Assembly: GCF_003815775.1 (NCBI RefSeq)
Contig: NZ_CP033926.1
Location: 1,488,001 to 1,552,000 of the forward strand
Length of the DNA: 64,000 nucleotides
Reading direction: 5' to 3'
Source: Chryseobacterium joostei
GTDB taxonomy: Bacteria > Bacteroidota > Bacteroidia > Flavobacteriales > Weeksellaceae
Shown: positions 15,061-51,871 of the stretch, piece after piece
How positions within the stretch are numbered: position 1 is the stretch's first letter
Layout of the letters: the number at the start of each line of letters is the position of its first letter
The notes under the pieces: generated by a model
Told to the model about the DNA's origin: nothing
The model's input: the letters and a program-made list of their open reading frames with translations, nothing else
Databases searched by the model: none
Program-made: the position numbers and the translations under genes

Positions 15061-15401
15061 GATTAATAAGTTTTGGTTTTTTTCCTACTCTTTTGTCGGC
15101 TTTTCGGAGACCGCCATTTTTGTTCAGGGTTTCGAAGCTTCTTTTGAACATGTCAAAGTAACGCCTAAAAAGAAGTTGAGGGTAGCGTATAAATCTGTAA
15201 TTTTTATATCAGGTGTTTATACCGTAGGAAGTAGGCATTTATACTGTAGTAAAAAGTAAGTATTTGTACTTCTATAAATTAGCCATCCCGCTCATTGAAG
15301 CGATCTGACTTTGGAAATTCTATTTCATTGGGATAACCTCAGCATTCAATCTGTATTAAATTTTCTGATTCCGGTACTCCCCTACAATCAGTTCATGAAG
15401 T
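15061..15401. other. non-coding gap
   Basis: No gene or obvious structured element is seen. It must carry the promoter of the 13408 gene, but I find no clear TAnnTTTG box. Confidence 0.4.
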
Positions 15402-44770: not shown

Positions 44771-45006
44771 CTTAAAATTATTGGGGCACAAAATACGTAA
44801 AAAGTCTATAAAATCAATAGACTAATATTATTAATTTTTATTCATGTGTTAAAATCCATTTTTTTTATTTTTTTTGAAGATTTTCAGCACACAATTCAAA
44901 ATACTGACATACAATAAGTTAAATCATTTTAAATTGATAATAGAATTCAATTTTACAATTACCCTACTAAATTAGTAGACTTATATGATATTTCTCATAT
45001 GCCCTA

Positions 45007-45040
45007 TTTGCAGGGGTTCACGAATAAATAAATAATTTTG
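45007..45040 (+). promoter_or_regulatory. promoter of the leader peptide / SusCD operon
   Basis: TTTG at 45007-45010 and TAATTTTG at 45033-45040, 22 nt apart (slightly long). The start would be about 45047, giving a leader of about 375 nt before susC. Confidence 0.55.
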
Positions 45041-45069
45041 ACCCAGTTAAAAAAATAAACTCTATTCTC

Positions 45070-45225
45070 ATGAATAAGAATGACTTTAATTCTTACCTAT
45101 ACACTATCGTGGCTAAACCGTCTGTTCAACTTCAATGTTCTACAGAAAACGGTCTTTCAAAACACAAAATCGGTTCTAAGGACATGTGTTTTGGATCTAT
45201 GATGTGTAAAATGATGATGCCATAA
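45070..45225 (+). CDS. 51-residue Met/Cys-rich leader peptide
   Basis: The frame starts 30 nt after the promoter -7 box and ends at 45225. The product MNKNDFNSYLYTIVAKPSVQ continues to an unusual end, DMCFGSMMCKMMMP: 6 Met and 2 Cys in the last 14 residues. This resembles attenuation leader peptides that sense charged tRNA, here Met and Cys. No signal peptide is present. Hairpins follow before susC. Whether it acts as a sensor or has a protein role is not settled. Confidence 0.6.
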   Translation: MNKNDFNSYLYTIVAKPSVQLQCSTENGLSKHKIGSKDMCFGSMMCKMMMP

Positions 45226-45263
45226 ATCCCAAAGAAATATGCACATTATTGTAGGAATTAAAG

Positions 45264-45372
45264 CCCGATAAGCTCAAGGCCTATTTAATCCGGGTACATC
45301 TCCTCTATTTTAACATTTTCTTTCTAGCACCTCCCTGAAAAAGGAGGCTGGGGATCTATTTTCCTAATCGGG
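45264..45372 (+). promoter_or_regulatory. mutually exclusive hairpins between leader peptide and susC
   Basis: CCCGAT (45264-45269) can pair with ATCCGGG (45288-45294, with a bulge) or with ATCGGG (45367-45372), not both. CCTCC (45330-45334) and GGAGG (45343-45347) form a further stem. Together with the Met/Cys leader this is the layout of an attenuator. Inferred from sequence only. Confidence 0.45.
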
Positions 45373-45423
45373 AAGATAAATAGTAATACACACATTCAAT
45401 TTTTTAAACCTAAGATTAATATA

Positions 45424-48378
45424 ATGAGAAAAAAACAATGCAAACTTGGTGTATTGGCTGTGCTCTTATTCGCGGAATATGGCTTTGCACAGAAAAAAGA
45501 CAGTCTTTCTCAGGAGACCTCCATCAAGGAAGTGGTGGTGGTAGCCTTTGGAAAGCAGAAAAAGGAAGAAATAACAGGGTCGGTACAGTCTTTAAAGACG
45601 AAAGACCTGTCTAATCTTCAAAATGGAAATGTACTTCAGGGAATTGGAGGTAAGGTTGCCGGTGTACAGGTAATTTCTTCCGGACAGCCCGGCTCCCAGC
45701 CTACGATAAGAATGAGAGGAATTGGTTCTATCAATGCTTCCAGTGATCCTTTAATAGTTTTGGACGGTATTCCTTACAACGGGGACCTGAACAGTATTTC
45801 TTCATCAGATATTGAAAGTATTTCCTTTCTTGAGGATGCTTCTTCCAACGCATTATACGGTTCCAGAGGAGCCAACGGAGTTATTATTGTGAATACCAAG
45901 AGAGGTAAAAGCAAAGGACTGCATATTGAAGCAGATGTAAAAACCGGAGTCAATTTCAGATCTATTGAGGATTATTCGGTGTATACTTCACCTCAGGATT
46001 ATTATACTGCGTATTATAACAGAGCAAGAATTGGAGAGATTGCAAGGTTAAGCCAACCAGGAGCAACTCCATCAGTCAATACTCCTCATGAAGAGGCACT
46101 TAAAGCACTAAATGGTCTGGGATACAATGTATACAATGTTCCTTTTAACAAGTTAATAAGACAGGACGGATCCTTTAATCCTGATGCTCAGTTATTGTAC
46201 CAAGATGACTGGAAGAAGTTACTTTTCAAACCTGCATTAAGGAGAGAAGCTACCGTGGGAATCAATGCCAGTAGTGATCAGTTGAAATCTTACACATCAC
46301 TTAATTATCTGGATGACAAGGGTTATCTTATTTCTTCAGGATTCGAAAGATTTGGGATAAGATCTAACCTGGATTATACGATTACTCCAAAGCTGAAATT
46401 AACAAGTGCTCTGTCTTATACCTATAGCCAACAGAATTTTGGAGAAACAGGTGGTTTTTCTAACCCGTTTCAGTTTGCCAGAAATATATCTCCTTTCTAT
46501 CCTGTTTTTCTTAGGGACGACAATTATCAGATGCTATATGATGCTGGCGGAAATCCTTTATACGACTATGGAGACGGGCAAGGTCCCAATGGCGCCACAA
46601 GATCCTATGCCGTTTTTGAAAATCCTGTAGGAAATCTACAAAAAGATAAGTCTCAAACCACCAGCAATATTGCCAATATCAATCTGGGGTTAAACTATGA
46701 AATTGTTAAGGGATTAGATTTCACTTATAATTTTGGAGCCTATCTTGAAAACTTAAAGAATCTTCAGTTTGGAAATACAGAAGGAGGAACTTCTTCATCG
46801 GTAGGAGGAACTATTTCTAAGGGATCTATATTTAAGTACACCTTGAATCACCAGCAATTGCTTACCTATCAAAAGAAACTGGATAAGCACAGCTTTAATA
46901 TCCTTATTGGTCATGAATTAAACAAGATAAAAAGTGAGGGATTCTCCGGAACAAAGCAACAGCTTTTATTACCTAACTCATTGTCTTTTGATAATGCCGT
47001 AAAGATCACAGACCTCTCAGGAAACGGCTATGAATATGCTGTGGAAGGATATTTCTCCAGGTTACTTTATAATTATGATGGTAAGTATTTCTTTAATGCC
47101 AATATTCGTAGAGATGGTTCTTCTGTTTTTTCTCCGGAGAGCAGATGGGGTAATTTTTATGGATTGGGTGTGGCATGGAACGTTACTAAAGAGGACTTCC
47201 TTAAAGACAACTCTGTAATTAACAATTTAAAATTAAAGGCTTCCTATGGACAGCAGGGAAATGACAACATCCTTCTGGACAGCACCACAAGAGACTACTA
47301 TGCGTATCAGGATATTTATGGAATCAACAATTTTGGGGATGATAAACCTGTTCTGTCTCTAAAAAAACAAGGAAATAAAGATTTAAAATGGGAAACCTCT
47401 AAAAACCTGAATGCCGGTTTTGAGCTCTCTCTTTTAAACAACAGAATCAACTTAAATGCTGATTATTTTGAAAGAAAAGTATCAGATATGATCTATACGC
47501 TTCCTTTGCCTATATCTAATGCGGGTTCTTATGTGAAGTATGGGAATATCGGGGACATGACCAACAGAGGAGTTCAGGCTAACATTACTATAGATTTGGT
47601 TCATACAGAACAACTTCAATGGAATGTGTATGCCAATGCCACTCATTATAAAAACAAAATCACAAAGCTTCCTGCTGAACAAAGAAATACAGGGCTTGTA
47701 ACAGGATTATTCATCTTAGCTGAGGGTGGAGACAGATATACCTATTACTTAAAAGAGTTTGCAGGAGTAAATCCTAAGAATGGAGATGCTTTATGGTATC
47801 GTACTTCCATCAATCCTACTACTCAACAGGCAGAGAAAACCATTACCAACAATTATAAGGAAGCAACCGATTATAATACAGGGAAATCAGCAATTCCAAA
47901 GGTATATGGTGGATTTGGAACGGATATTACCTACAAAAGATTTAGTCTGGCCGTTAATTTTGCCTACCAGTTTGGCGGATATGGTTATGATGATATTTAC
48001 AGAAGCTTATTCCATTCTAATACTTACGGTTCTAATTACACAACTGATCTGGATAAAACCTGGACTCCGGAAAATCCAAATGCAGCCTTGCCACGTGTTG
48101 ACCTGACTTCCACTAGCCAGAACGAAAACTCAACACTTTATCTGATAAAATCGGATTATATCAGTCTTCAGGATGTTACATTAGGATATCAGCTTCCGGA
48201 TGGTTTTGCTCAACAGGCAGGCTTATCGGGATTAAAAATTTATTTGACAGGAAACAATCTTTATCTATGGTCTAAAAGAAAGGGATATGATCCAAGAGCT
48301 TCCTTAACAGGAGTATCTGATCCATACAAATACTCTCTCTTATCAAGTGTTTCCCTTGGCTTTAAACTAACATTTTAA
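45424..48378 (+). CDS. SusC/RagA family TonB-dependent outer-membrane transporter
   Basis: This 984-residue protein has a signal peptide ending AQ at residue 23. The plug domain begins almost at once (KEVVVVAFGKQKKEEITGSVQSLKTKDL, GKVAGVQVISSGQPGSQPTIRMRGIGS, then DPLIVLDGIPYNG), so the usual roughly 90-residue carboxypeptidase-like N-terminal domain is missing. The rest is a 22-strand barrel ending in the aromatic LTF. It imports a nutrient across the outer membrane with the SusD protein encoded 8 nt downstream. The Met/Cys leader suggests a sulphur-related substrate. That is inference. Confidence 0.92.
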   Translation: MRKKQCKLGVLAVLLFAEYGFAQKKDSLSQETSIKEVVVVAFGKQKKEEITGSVQSLKTKDLSNLQNGNVLQGIGGKVAGVQVISSGQPGSQPTIRMRGIGSINASSDPLIVLDGIPYNGDLNSISSSDIESISFLEDASSNALYGSRGANGVIIVNTKRGKSKGLHIEADVKTGVNFRSIEDYSVYTSPQDYYTAYYNRARIGEIARLSQPGATPSVNTPHEEALKALNGLGYNVYNVPFNKLIRQDGSFNPDAQLLYQDDWKKLLFKPALRREATVGINASSDQLKSYTSLNYLDDKGYLISSGFERFGIRSNLDYTITPKLKLTSALSYTYSQQNFGETGGFSNPFQFARNISPFYPVFLRDDNYQMLYDAGGNPLYDYGDGQGPNGATRSYAVFENPVGNLQKDKSQTTSNIANINLGLNYEIVKGLDFTYNFGAYLENLKNLQFGNTEGGTSSSVGGTISKGSIFKYTLNHQQLLTYQKKLDKHSFNILIGHELNKIKSEGFSGTKQQLLLPNSLSFDNAVKITDLSGNGYEYAVEGYFSRLLYNYDGKYFFNANIRRDGSSVFSPESRWGNFYGLGVAWNVTKEDFLKDNSVINNLKLKASYGQQGNDNILLDSTTRDYYAYQDIYGINNFGDDKPVLSLKKQGNKDLKWETSKNLNAGFELSLLNNRINLNADYFERKVSDMIYTLPLPISNAGSYVKYGNIGDMTNRGVQANITIDLVHTEQLQWNVYANATHYKNKITKLPAEQRNTGLVTGLFILAEGGDRYTYYLKEFAGVNPKNGDALWYRTSINPTTQQAEKTITNNYKEATDYNTGKSAIPKVYGGFGTDITYKRFSLAVNFAYQFGGYGYDDIYRSLFHSNTYGSNYTTDLDKTWTPENPNAALPRVDLTSTSQNENSTLYLIKSDYISLQDVTLGYQLPDGFAQQAGLSGLKIYLTGNNLYLWSKRKGYDPRASLTGVSDPYKYSLLSSVSLGFKLTF

Positions 48379-48386
48379 AAGAAATT

Positions 48387-49850
48387 ATGAAAACAATAAA
48401 ATACTTTATAGCAGCCATAGGTATTGGCCTCCTTACCAACAGTTGCGCCAATGATCTGAATACTTTACCGGAAAGTGATATTTCTGGTGAACAACTGAAT
48501 GACGATCAATCTAAACCTGAAAAAATCCTAGGCGGGATTTATCTGGATCTTCGAAGCAACGGAGCCGGAGGGACAACTCTTCATTCTGACTTTGGAATTA
48601 TGGCTATAAAAGCAGGTGCAGACCTGATGTCTAATGATGTGATACAAGCTAAAAACCAGCATTTGGGAATGTTCTATAATTATGACGCCACCAATGCCAG
48701 CAATTCTGCCTCAGAGATTGTTTGGACCACTTTTTATGCAAGGATATTTGTAATTAATAAGCTTCTTGATGATTTAAAAAATGATAATAGTTCTAAAAAT
48801 AGAGCCATTAAAGGACAACTCCTTGCCTTAAGAGCCTATTCCTACTTTTATCTCGTTCGCTTTTACGCCAATGATTATAAAGGACACCAATCGGAACCGG
48901 GAGTACCACTTGTTCTTACAAGCAGCAATCCTAACCAAGGACTTCCAAGATCAACAGTATCCGAGGTATACACACAAATCGCCAAGGACATAGAAGAATC
49001 TATTGTACTATTGGATAGCTTTGCACGTCCGTCCAGAGCCCAGATAGATCAAAGAACGGCAAAAGCCATTGCATCTGAGATATTTCTGCAAACCGGAGAC
49101 TATGCTAAAGCAGGAAAGTATGCCGAAGAAAGTAAGCAGGGTGTTGCTCTGATGACAGAAAATGAGTACACCTCTACAGGATTTTCCACCATCAATAACC
49201 CTGAAGTTATTTGGGGATTCCATAATACCATTTCTACGATGAGTATCGGAAACTATTATGCTTCTTTCTTCTCGATGTTTGATAATACCAATGAAGGATA
49301 TGCCGGAGCTGCCCAAATCTACAAACTGATAGATAAGCGTCTGTATGAAGCCATTCCGGAAACAGATTACCGTAAAAAAGTATTTAACGGAAGTCAGGGA
49401 GCCAAGTATACCTTTAACGGAAAGACAAAAAACTATCCTGCCTATGTAAGCTGGAAGTTTAAGGATCCTAGTCTTTTTGAGGGTGATTATATTTACATCA
49501 GAGCCTCTTCTTTATATTATGTACAAGCAGAAGCCCTTGCAAGACAAGGAAGAGAAACAGAAGCCAAGCAGGTATTATTTGAAATTGCCTCCAAAAGAGA
49601 TAAGGCCTATACCCTATCTTCAAAAACAGGGAGTGAGCTGATTAATGAAATCATCCTTCAAAAAAGAATTGAGCTTTGGGGCGAAGGTTACGCTTGGTTT
49701 GATATGAAAAGACTCAACACTCCTTTAGAAAGAGTATATACCGGAACGAACCATACTTTTGGAAGATTTAACCTCACACCGGATAAATTCAGGTTCCAAA
49801 TACCGAATAAAGAGATTAATAATAACCCGCAAATCAAGCAGAATGAATAG
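48387..49850 (+). CDS. SusD/RagB family substrate-binding lipoprotein
   Basis: This 487-residue protein has a lipobox LLTNSC near residue 20. It shows the SusD helical TPR fold with typical blocks: RAIKGQLLALRAYSYFYLVRFYA, VPLVLTSSNPNQGLPRSTVSEVYTQIAKDIEES, and the C-terminal IILQKRIELWGEGYAWFDMKRLN and FRFQIPNKEINNNPQIKQNE end. It caps the SusC pore on the cell surface. It is 8 nt after susC and ends the operon with a strong terminator. Confidence 0.92.
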   Translation: MKTIKYFIAAIGIGLLTNSCANDLNTLPESDISGEQLNDDQSKPEKILGGIYLDLRSNGAGGTTLHSDFGIMAIKAGADLMSNDVIQAKNQHLGMFYNYDATNASNSASEIVWTTFYARIFVINKLLDDLKNDNSSKNRAIKGQLLALRAYSYFYLVRFYANDYKGHQSEPGVPLVLTSSNPNQGLPRSTVSEVYTQIAKDIEESIVLLDSFARPSRAQIDQRTAKAIASEIFLQTGDYAKAGKYAEESKQGVALMTENEYTSTGFSTINNPEVIWGFHNTISTMSIGNYYASFFSMFDNTNEGYAGAAQIYKLIDKRLYEAIPETDYRKKVFNGSQGAKYTFNGKTKNYPAYVSWKFKDPSLFEGDYIYIRASSLYYVQAEALARQGRETEAKQVLFEIASKRDKAYTLSSKTGSELINEIILQKRIELWGEGYAWFDMKRLNTPLERVYTGTNHTFGRFNLTPDKFRFQIPNKEINNNPQIKQNE

Positions 49851-50968: not shown

Positions 50969-51871
50969 ATGCACAAAATGAAGCCAAGAAAAATTATTTT
51001 CACCCTGTTTATCCTACTTTTAAGTCTACCCCTTTTTTCACAAACCCATACTAATCCGGAACTAAAAAAGATCATTGAGTCCATCATTGTCAATAAGAAG
51101 GCAGATGTAGGAGTATCCATTATGGAGATTCCCAAAAAAGAGGTCGTACAGATTAATGGAAATAAGTTTTATCCCATGCTGAGTACTGTAAAGTTCCACA
51201 TTGCCTTAGCCATTCTTCATAAGGTAGAAAAAGGTGAACTTTCTCTACAACAAAAGATTTACATCAAAAAAGAAGAACTTTTGGAAAACACATGGAGCCC
51301 ATTTCAAAAAGAACATCCTGAAGGTAATATTGAACTGACCTTAGAGGAAACAATGAAATGGATGGTTTCCTACAGTGATAATAATCTAACGGATATCCTT
51401 CTACGATTAATAGGTGGTCCTGAACCTGTTCAAAAATTCATTAACAGTAAAAATTTCGTCATTAAAAATAATGAAGAAGACATGCACAAGGATTGGGATT
51501 CTCAATTTATCAATACAATAACACCCAACGAAGCCAACAGATTACTTGAAAAATTCTACAATGGAAAACTTCTGAACAAGGAACACACAAAGTGGCTGTA
51601 CACCGCCATGCTTAATAATGCATCAGGTGCCAAAAGACTCAAGGCCCATCTTCCCAAAGGTGTTAAGATAGCCCATCGCACAGGAACGTCTTTTACCAAC
51701 GAATCTGGAATGACCGGGGCTATAAATGATTTCGGGATCATTGAACTTTCAGATAAAAAAAGAATATACATTGCCGTTTTTGTACACGACACCTATGAAA
51801 AGTTTGAAAATGCAGAAGCCATCATTGCAGATATCTCCAAGGCAACCTATGATTATTACAACAAAAAATAA
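50969..51871 (+). CDS. class A beta-lactamase (A2-like)
   Basis: This 300-residue protein has a signal peptide ending FSQ at about residue 25. Catalytic motifs: STVK (Ser72, Lys75), SDN (Ser136-Asn138), a Glu-rich omega loop NNEEDMHKDW near residue 170, and RTG (237-239) where most members have KTG. The order and the EEDMHKDW loop fit the A2 subclass typical of Chryseobacterium chromosomal enzymes. It is exported, hydrolyses beta-lactams and would contribute to intrinsic resistance. The spectrum cannot be read from sequence. It heads a two-gene operon with a 4-nt gap. Confidence 0.9.
   Translation: MHKMKPRKIIFTLFILLLSLPLFSQTHTNPELKKIIESIIVNKKADVGVSIMEIPKKEVVQINGNKFYPMLSTVKFHIALAILHKVEKGELSLQQKIYIKKEELLENTWSPFQKEHPEGNIELTLEETMKWMVSYSDNNLTDILLRLIGGPEPVQKFINSKNFVIKNNEEDMHKDWDSQFINTITPNEANRLLEKFYNGKLLNKEHTKWLYTAMLNNASGAKRLKAHLPKGVKIAHRTGTSFTNESGMTGAINDFGIIELSDKKRIYIAVFVHDTYEKFENAEAIIADISKATYDYYNKK

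Follow-up and report, generated by a model that had tools for sequence, protein, structure and literature searches.

A conserved Met/Cys-rich leader peptide ahead of a SusCD operon suggests leader-peptide control within a putative sulfur regulon of Chryseobacterium

Introduction

In tRNA-charge attenuation of the trp, his, and ilv type, a short ORF just past the promoter carries a series of codons specifying the limiting amino acid, and conserved hairpins precede the first structural gene. Polycysteine short ORFs of mycobacteria, the subject of a 2020 study by Canestrari, reportedly use their Cys codons to sense cysteine, to judge by its title. In Streptomyces lividans, the metL leader MSTTSDRTPATEATTTPGARCMCRRMCAF precedes metNIQ, and no typical terminator is reported there (PMC8079986). 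A copper-responsive uORF, CruR/DUF2946, lies before the gene for the TonB-dependent transporter BfrG; CruR is described as a 145-residue protein with CXXC and RAPP motifs that senses copper, with Rho-dependent termination (PMC9426467). Closer to the organism studied here, the transcriptome of Flavobacterium psychrophilum reportedly provides strong clues for leader-peptide attenuation before amino-acid biosynthesis operons (PMC9723704), and leader-peptide attenuation is therefore plausible in this group.

The locus described here lies in a 64-kb segment (hereafter the window) of a 4.89-Mb genome. It shares with the trp/his/ilv systems the position of the ORF, the run of control codons, and the conserved hairpins, but differs in having an outer-membrane SusCD system downstream, two amino acids (Met and Cys) in the control codons, no canonical intrinsic terminator, and a switch that is predicted rather than proved. 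The mycobacterial ORFs, by title, are leaderless and polycysteine and belong to another phylum. The metL leader resembles ours in its Met/Cys-containing tail and in the sulfur amino-acid importer downstream (predicted for our locus), but it is unrelated in sequence, comes from another phylum, and precedes an ABC transporter rather than SusCD. With CruR, our locus shares a uORF ahead of a gene for a TonB-dependent transporter. Among the matches listed in the open-access literature, with subscription papers mostly outside this scope, we found no Met/Cys leader before SusCD or another TonB-dependent importer, nor the regulon described below.

Results

The plus strand of the window encodes a 984-aa SusC/RagA TonB-linked outer-membrane protein (45424-48378; TIGR04056, 635.8 bits compared to a cut-off of 368.25) and a 487-aa SusD/RagB lipoprotein (48387-49850; PF14322 and PF07980), and thus has the TonB-linked barrel and adjoining SusD of a SusCD importer. 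The solved structures closest by sequence are those of a SusC homologue (8aa4) and RagA (6sli) for SusC and of several SusD-like proteins for SusD. Bacteroidota carry many SusCD pairs, which are usually assigned to glycans or peptides from neighboring enzymes. At this locus, neighboring genes vary among the 14 loci that we compared, with none kept across all 14. Thus, the leader, susC, and susD constitute the conserved unit, and it is chiefly the control region that hints at the SusCD substrate.

A 51-codon ATG frame (45070-45225, plus strand) encodes MNKNDFNSYLYTIVAKPSVQLQCSTENGLSKHKIGSKDMCFGSMMCKMMMP and ends 198 nt before the susC start codon. A Bacteroidota-type -7 promoter box, TAATTTTG (TAnnTTTG; 45033-45040, plus strand), ends 29 nt before this ATG, and transcription is expected to start near 45045. 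Similar boxes were present 20-60 nt ahead of 66/66 orthologous leaders, and TAnnTTTG is given as the sigma-A consensus in the F. psychrophilum study (PMC9723704). The original prediction of a 51-residue frame just after a promoter, with 6 Met and 2 Cys in its final 14 residues, therefore held: these residues are DMCFGSMMCKMMMP. When we compared the 439 frames of 20-120 aa that begin with ATG in any of the six reading frames of the window, the leader had 8 Met+Cys in its last 14 residues and the others had at most 4. The candidate control codons, M-C-F-G-S-M-M-C-K-M-M-M (45184-45219, plus strand), were assigned by conservation of the Cys residues and enrichment of Met+Cys in the tail.

The leader peptide is present in 66 of 173 genus genomes (E<1e-3), and Chryseobacterium accounts for all nine named relatives whose peptides are most similar; a 67th locus (G107, E 0.055, an unrelated frame) was removed before counting. 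The SusC search covered 171 genomes, and the leader is present in 64/64 of those with SusC at ≥73% identity. The remaining two leader genomes are G089, in which SusC is present but was missing from the SusC search results, and G015, which has the 5′ part of susC only. The long SusC frame begins 160-208 nt past the leader stop in 63/66 loci, and the exceptions (G052, G128, and G015) are interrupted susC copies. At the G015 locus (L093), susC is truncated to its 5′ part, yet the leader and the operator described below are retained in front of it.

Over the 66 aligned leader genes, dN/dS was 0.51, with values of 0.37 for residues 2-13, 0.75 for residues 14-37, and 0.23 for residues 38-51. It was thus below 1 in all three parts, and the start codon was kept in 66/66 genes. 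Cys occupies the first main Cys position in 66/66 peptides (TGC 38, TGT 28) and the second in 59/66 (TGC 32, TGT 27). This alternation of TGC and TGT, together with the dN/dS values, indicates that the amino acids, and not the RNA alone, are under selection. Met+Cys account for 529 of 924 tail residues in the 66 peptides, compared to 220 of 2355 residues elsewhere, and each of the 66 peptides has 5-10 Met+Cys in its last 14 residues, with number and spacing that differ (for example, MMCKMMM, MMCMCTMMM, and MMGMMMMC). The Met/Cys tail of the leader is thus under purifying selection, and conservation of the peptide among relatives, which the original prediction had proposed as a check, was found both in its occurrence (66/173 genomes) and in its C-terminal dN/dS.

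SusC at 84-85% identity was carried by 4 of 246 sampled genomes of the family, all from a sister genus (g23). The leaders at all four loci occupy the same place, read MNTS....FTFQCMCYMYSM, and end in FQCMCYMYSM, with 5 Met+Cys in the tail and little else alike. The sister-genus peptide is thus largely different from the Chryseobacterium leader, yet the Met/Cys end is retained. No comparable leader was found in the 520 nt before SusC at nine loci outside the genus (≤58% identity) and two paralogues within it, several of these stretches being partly coding.

The same data bear on the idea that the frame codes for an independently functioning small protein, such as a metal carrier or membrane peptide, with regulation by the operator alone. 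Purifying selection at the N- and C-terminus would agree with this idea, but the middle of the peptide is relaxed (dN/dS 0.75), the sister-genus peptide differs over most of its length, the peptide was found at E<1e-3 only ahead of this SusC, and it has no Pfam or NCBIfam match; we therefore regard such a function as very improbable. No relative of the peptide was found in viral contigs either.

The original prediction also proposed mutually exclusive pairing downstream of the leader, of CCCGAT with ATCCGGG or ATCGGG. The three segments are present in the window (45264-45269, 45288-45294, and 45367-45372, respectively) and cannot all pair at once, but they are mostly not conserved: in the 215 nt past the stop of the 66 orthologous leaders, CCCGAT occurred in 15, ATCCGGG in 44, and ATCGGG in 3. 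The CCCG:CGGG part of these pairs persists as the inner helix of a hairpin, A, in the clade of the window. We analyzed RNA structure in alignments of 65 genus loci and 4 sister-genus loci, leaving out G128, for which no SusC start was found. Hairpin A (45250-45304, plus strand), which consists of TGTAGGA (45250-45256) with TCCT (45301-45304) of the strand TCCTGTA and an inner GCC/GGG helix, here GCCCG (45263-45267) with CGGGT (45291-45295), was paired in 84.9% of alignment cells compared to 35-53% in slid controls; double-sided changes occurred in 13 cells, compared to 3.4 in shuffled and 7-16 in slid controls, a slide of -2 being as high or higher. Hairpin P4 (45330-45347, plus strand), formed by CCTCC (45330-45334) and GGAGG (45343-45347), was paired in 92.8% of cells over 67 distinct sequences, including the 4 of the sister genus, with double-sided changes at three of its five pairs. 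A local hairpin, P3, was paired in 72.3% of cells, and P4 and P3 together in 82.7% compared to 46-69% in slid controls, although a slide of -3 gave 22 double-sided cells compared to 16 unslid and raised the covariation score slightly. For the entire leader past the ORF, the RNAalifold consensus retained P4 only. Hence, of the covariation expected for the hairpins, pairing of P4 and A far above slid controls was observed, and covariation exceeded shuffles, but double-sided changes were not clearly above the slid controls. The level of pairing suggests that the fold of the susC leader RNA probably matters.

CTCCT in the 3′ strand of hairpin A could pair with AGGAG of P4 in 94.3% of cells, with covariation that was not above shuffles. 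Alternative pairings thus appear possible in most orthologues, and a switch between them is a prediction of these models. Other candidate pairings were rejected. A long-range helix from single-sequence folds, ATTACTG/CAGTAAT, had its outermost pair in 47/69 sequences and uncompensated changes of the 3′ strand in the clade of the window; helix P2 (GGAATTAAAG/CTTTAATCC) was paired in 35/69 to 67/69 sequences, depending on the pair; and a helix between the run of Met codons and a CATTA immediately past the stop, suggested by single-sequence folds with different ribosome positions at 16 loci, varied between clades. An AAGGAGG resembling a Shine-Dalgarno sequence lies 76 nt ahead of the SusC start, paired with CCTCC in P4, and by eye no useful start codon is close. 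The leader had no Rfam match at gathering thresholds, and at E values up to 10 only tsr31 (E 0.94) matched, on the other strand.

We found 0 terminator-like sites in the leader of the window, and a terminator-like stem was present in 3/65 susC leaders, compared to 30/30 leaders of the metNI operon described below (the best 30 of 85). The proposed layout of tRNA-charge attenuation is therefore present as a translated leader with a Met/Cys run but lacks an intrinsic terminator. This absence, in the window and in most orthologues, would be expected if the leader were solely a translation gate, in which translation shields the RNA from Rho or decay and the Met/Cys codons slow starved ribosomes, with no need for a terminator or a specific alternative fold. 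A translated uORF with a gap of ~200 nt and the weak covariation are also consistent with a gate. Pairing of P4 and A far above slid controls, however, argues that the fold probably matters, and we consider a pure translation gate unlikely, although it deserves weight.

A second leader in the same genome precedes an operon of an EamA-like transporter gene, metN, and metI. MetI matched NF008049 above cut-off, and MetN matched TIGR02314 with 447 bits, below the cut-off of 499.7. This leader is a 32-codon ORF ending ...KIMMMCNCMPIHKELRG (MMMCNCM; L213:2978-3204, C1 near 1598578-1598804), followed by GGCTCTACCACGTGTAGGGCC-TTTTT, where one terminator-like pattern was found compared to 0.0 expected. 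Its peptide is present in 85 of 171 genomes (E≤1e-3, counted by hand). Among the best 30 of these 85 loci, the 8-bp terminator stem was fully paired in 30/30, with three pair types each at pairs 4 and 5 and GU once at pairs 1 and 2; the arm positions were chosen as the best among six offsets, a procedure that favors pairing. The end of the leader (C/TGTGG) could base-pair with the terminator segment CCACG at 28 of the same best 30 loci, and the other two have ACAAC. In our genome, the antiterminator that could form before the 3′ arm exists had a calculated energy of -10 kcal/mol with the leader end free and -0.2 kcal/mol with a ribosome on the stop region. Whichever ribosome position was tried, the full-length leader had the terminator as its minimum-energy fold, and an antiterminator would therefore have to win kinetically; ViennaRNA folds leave kinetics out. 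The metNI leader has the layout of classical attenuation with Met and Cys control codons, and its antiterminator is a possible structure.

Upstream of the susC leader promoter, we identified a putative operator, ACCCTACTAAATTAGTAGACT (44961-44981), whose core, CTACTAAATTAGTAG (44964-44978), is conserved ahead of the leaders. With ≤3/15 mismatches, this core was found ahead of 66/66 leaders, compared to 9 of 1320 stretches of 100 nt taken at random from these loci, some of which may overlap true operator sites. A second, upstream copy, AGTCTATAAAATCAATAGACT (44803-44823), has counterparts with ≤4/21 mismatches 236-271 nt upstream of the leader ATG at 53/66 loci; the remaining 13 have no site closer than 8 or 9 mismatches. 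Between operator and promoter lies an inverted repeat, TATGA-N6-TCATA (44984-44999), which recurs as TATGA-N6-TCATR in 65/66 loci and at a sister-genus locus (L279) is a perfect palindrome, ATATGATATATATCATAT. We take its spacing to resemble that of a CRP/FNR-family site.

Related operator sites, sometimes degenerate, occur in the same genome before the EamA-metN-metI operon, a SusCD operon with a SAM-I riboswitch, a NIL-domain gene, a 1-Cys peroxiredoxin/MscS pair, kbl/cupin, and a TonB receptor gene, and between Rrf2 and TauE/SafE genes. A 24-mer operator with 3 mismatches allowed gave 1-5 sites per strand in 11 of 12 genus genomes, including our own, and 2 and 0 in the twelfth (G019), compared to one control match over all 12 genomes. 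The 30 matches listed, several of which are the two strands of one site, all adjoin NIL, peroxiredoxin, kbl/cupin, or this SusC. Sites of the metNI operon are more degenerate, yet they can be recognized by eye ahead of 30/30 metNI leaders (the best 30 of 85). In our genome, looser patterns did not exceed the reversed control (51/47 compared to 70/65, and 14/21 compared to 14/18), and the weaker sites, at the TonB receptor and Rrf2/TauE, are thus uncertain; the case for the operator depends on the 24-mer with 3 mismatches and on conservation ahead of orthologues. An order-wide scan matched the operator in 16 genus genomes and 12 others, and outside the genus the matches were not above control.

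In the second SusCD operon (L210:5026-5263), a SAM-I riboswitch (RF00162, 64.7 bits) comes after a related operator. Of the three SAM-I riboswitches in this genome, one has the operator inside its 3.1-kb locus. Like the SusCD operon of the window, the second operon combines a related operator, SusCD genes, and RNA-level sensing of sulfur amino-acid supply (proposed for the window), although an aptamer takes the place of the leader peptide; it is a candidate sulfur-source importer. The shared operator, the metNI leader, and this riboswitch-linked SusCD together make a role in sulfur nutrition for the SusCD of the window, part of the original prediction, a well-supported proposal.

The company of these sites also bears on whether the nascent peptide itself might be the sensor, its Met/Cys-rich tail binding Cu(I) or another thiophilic ligand and changing ribosome stalling, as in CruR. 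The Met/Cys/His-rich residues, the location before a TonB-dependent importer, and the long gap to the next gene would suit this model, for which CruR is a precedent (PMC9426467). However, the leader has no DUF2946 match, the CXXC-RAPP arrangement is absent from the peptides, and the number and spacing of Met and Cys vary among them. The related operator sites point instead to methionine transport and a SAM riboswitch, and none of the genes typed beside them was recognized, short of a targeted search, as a copper gene. Direct sensing of copper or a similar ligand is thus improbable in our judgment.

At the uncertain Rrf2/TauE site, an Rrf2-family regulator with a Cys cluster, CVSLNFYEKCEDCNEDHCGLH (L209:7080-7484), adjoins the possible operator site and TauE/SafE; by its adjacency, this protein may perhaps be the factor or sensor of the regulon. 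The other uncertain site (L211:5050-5140) lies directly ahead of the gene for a TonB-dependent receptor of 930 aa and was seen in our own genome only.

Discussion

The reading that we favor, with odds somewhat better than even, is that the leader acts as a Met/Cys-responsive leader-peptide attenuator, without a canonical terminator, of a SusCD operon that belongs to a sulfur regulon. Control would operate on two levels, at promoter initiation and then in the leader RNA. Low sulfur would relieve or activate the promoter via the operator common to methionine-transport and other sulfur-linked genes, and RNA polymerase would transcribe the 51-codon leader, which ends largely in codons for Met and Cys. 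If the supply of charged tRNA for Met or Cys ran short, a ribosome would stall on the leader tail and alter the fold of the ~200-nt leader, in which hairpin A would compete with pairing of its 3′ strand to the GGAGG arm of P4, and more SusCD mRNA would be completed or translated as a result. Since no terminator was found, the leader may exert its effect through Rho-dependent termination, through the stability of the RNA, or at the translation of susC. In this scheme, we infer that tRNA charge rather than the nascent peptide would be sensed, with stalling on uncharged tRNA as the signal, induction following starvation, the fold acting without a canonical terminator, and the SusCD operon supplying Met or Cys.

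Two further points count against this reading. The control codons reach the stop codon, and stalled and finishing ribosomes therefore differ by few codons; moreover, the switch as drawn would have the wrong sign if P4 were a terminator. We hold more tentatively, as a possibility with somewhat less than even odds, that charge of tRNA-Met and tRNA-Cys controls SusCD through the terminator-less leader as part of a regulon that pairs one operator with interchangeable RNA sensors, which would be a leader without a terminator (SusCD), a leader with one (metNI), and a SAM-I riboswitch (the other SusCD).

If true, the attenuator reading would name a sulfur-source importer, would mean that translation-coupled amino-acid sensing governs outer-membrane uptake, and would make such leaders a route to assigning substrates of orphan SusCD operons, with the metNI leader of the same regulon as a ready positive control. 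RagAB is a peptide importer, and by analogy our guess is that the SusCD substrate might be Met- or Cys-containing peptides.

Elsewhere in the window, a class A (subclass A2) beta-lactamase gene lies at 50969-51871 (NCBIfam), and the Rfam cis-regulatory RNA DUF805b matches at 15082-15117 on the minus strand (39.4 bits).
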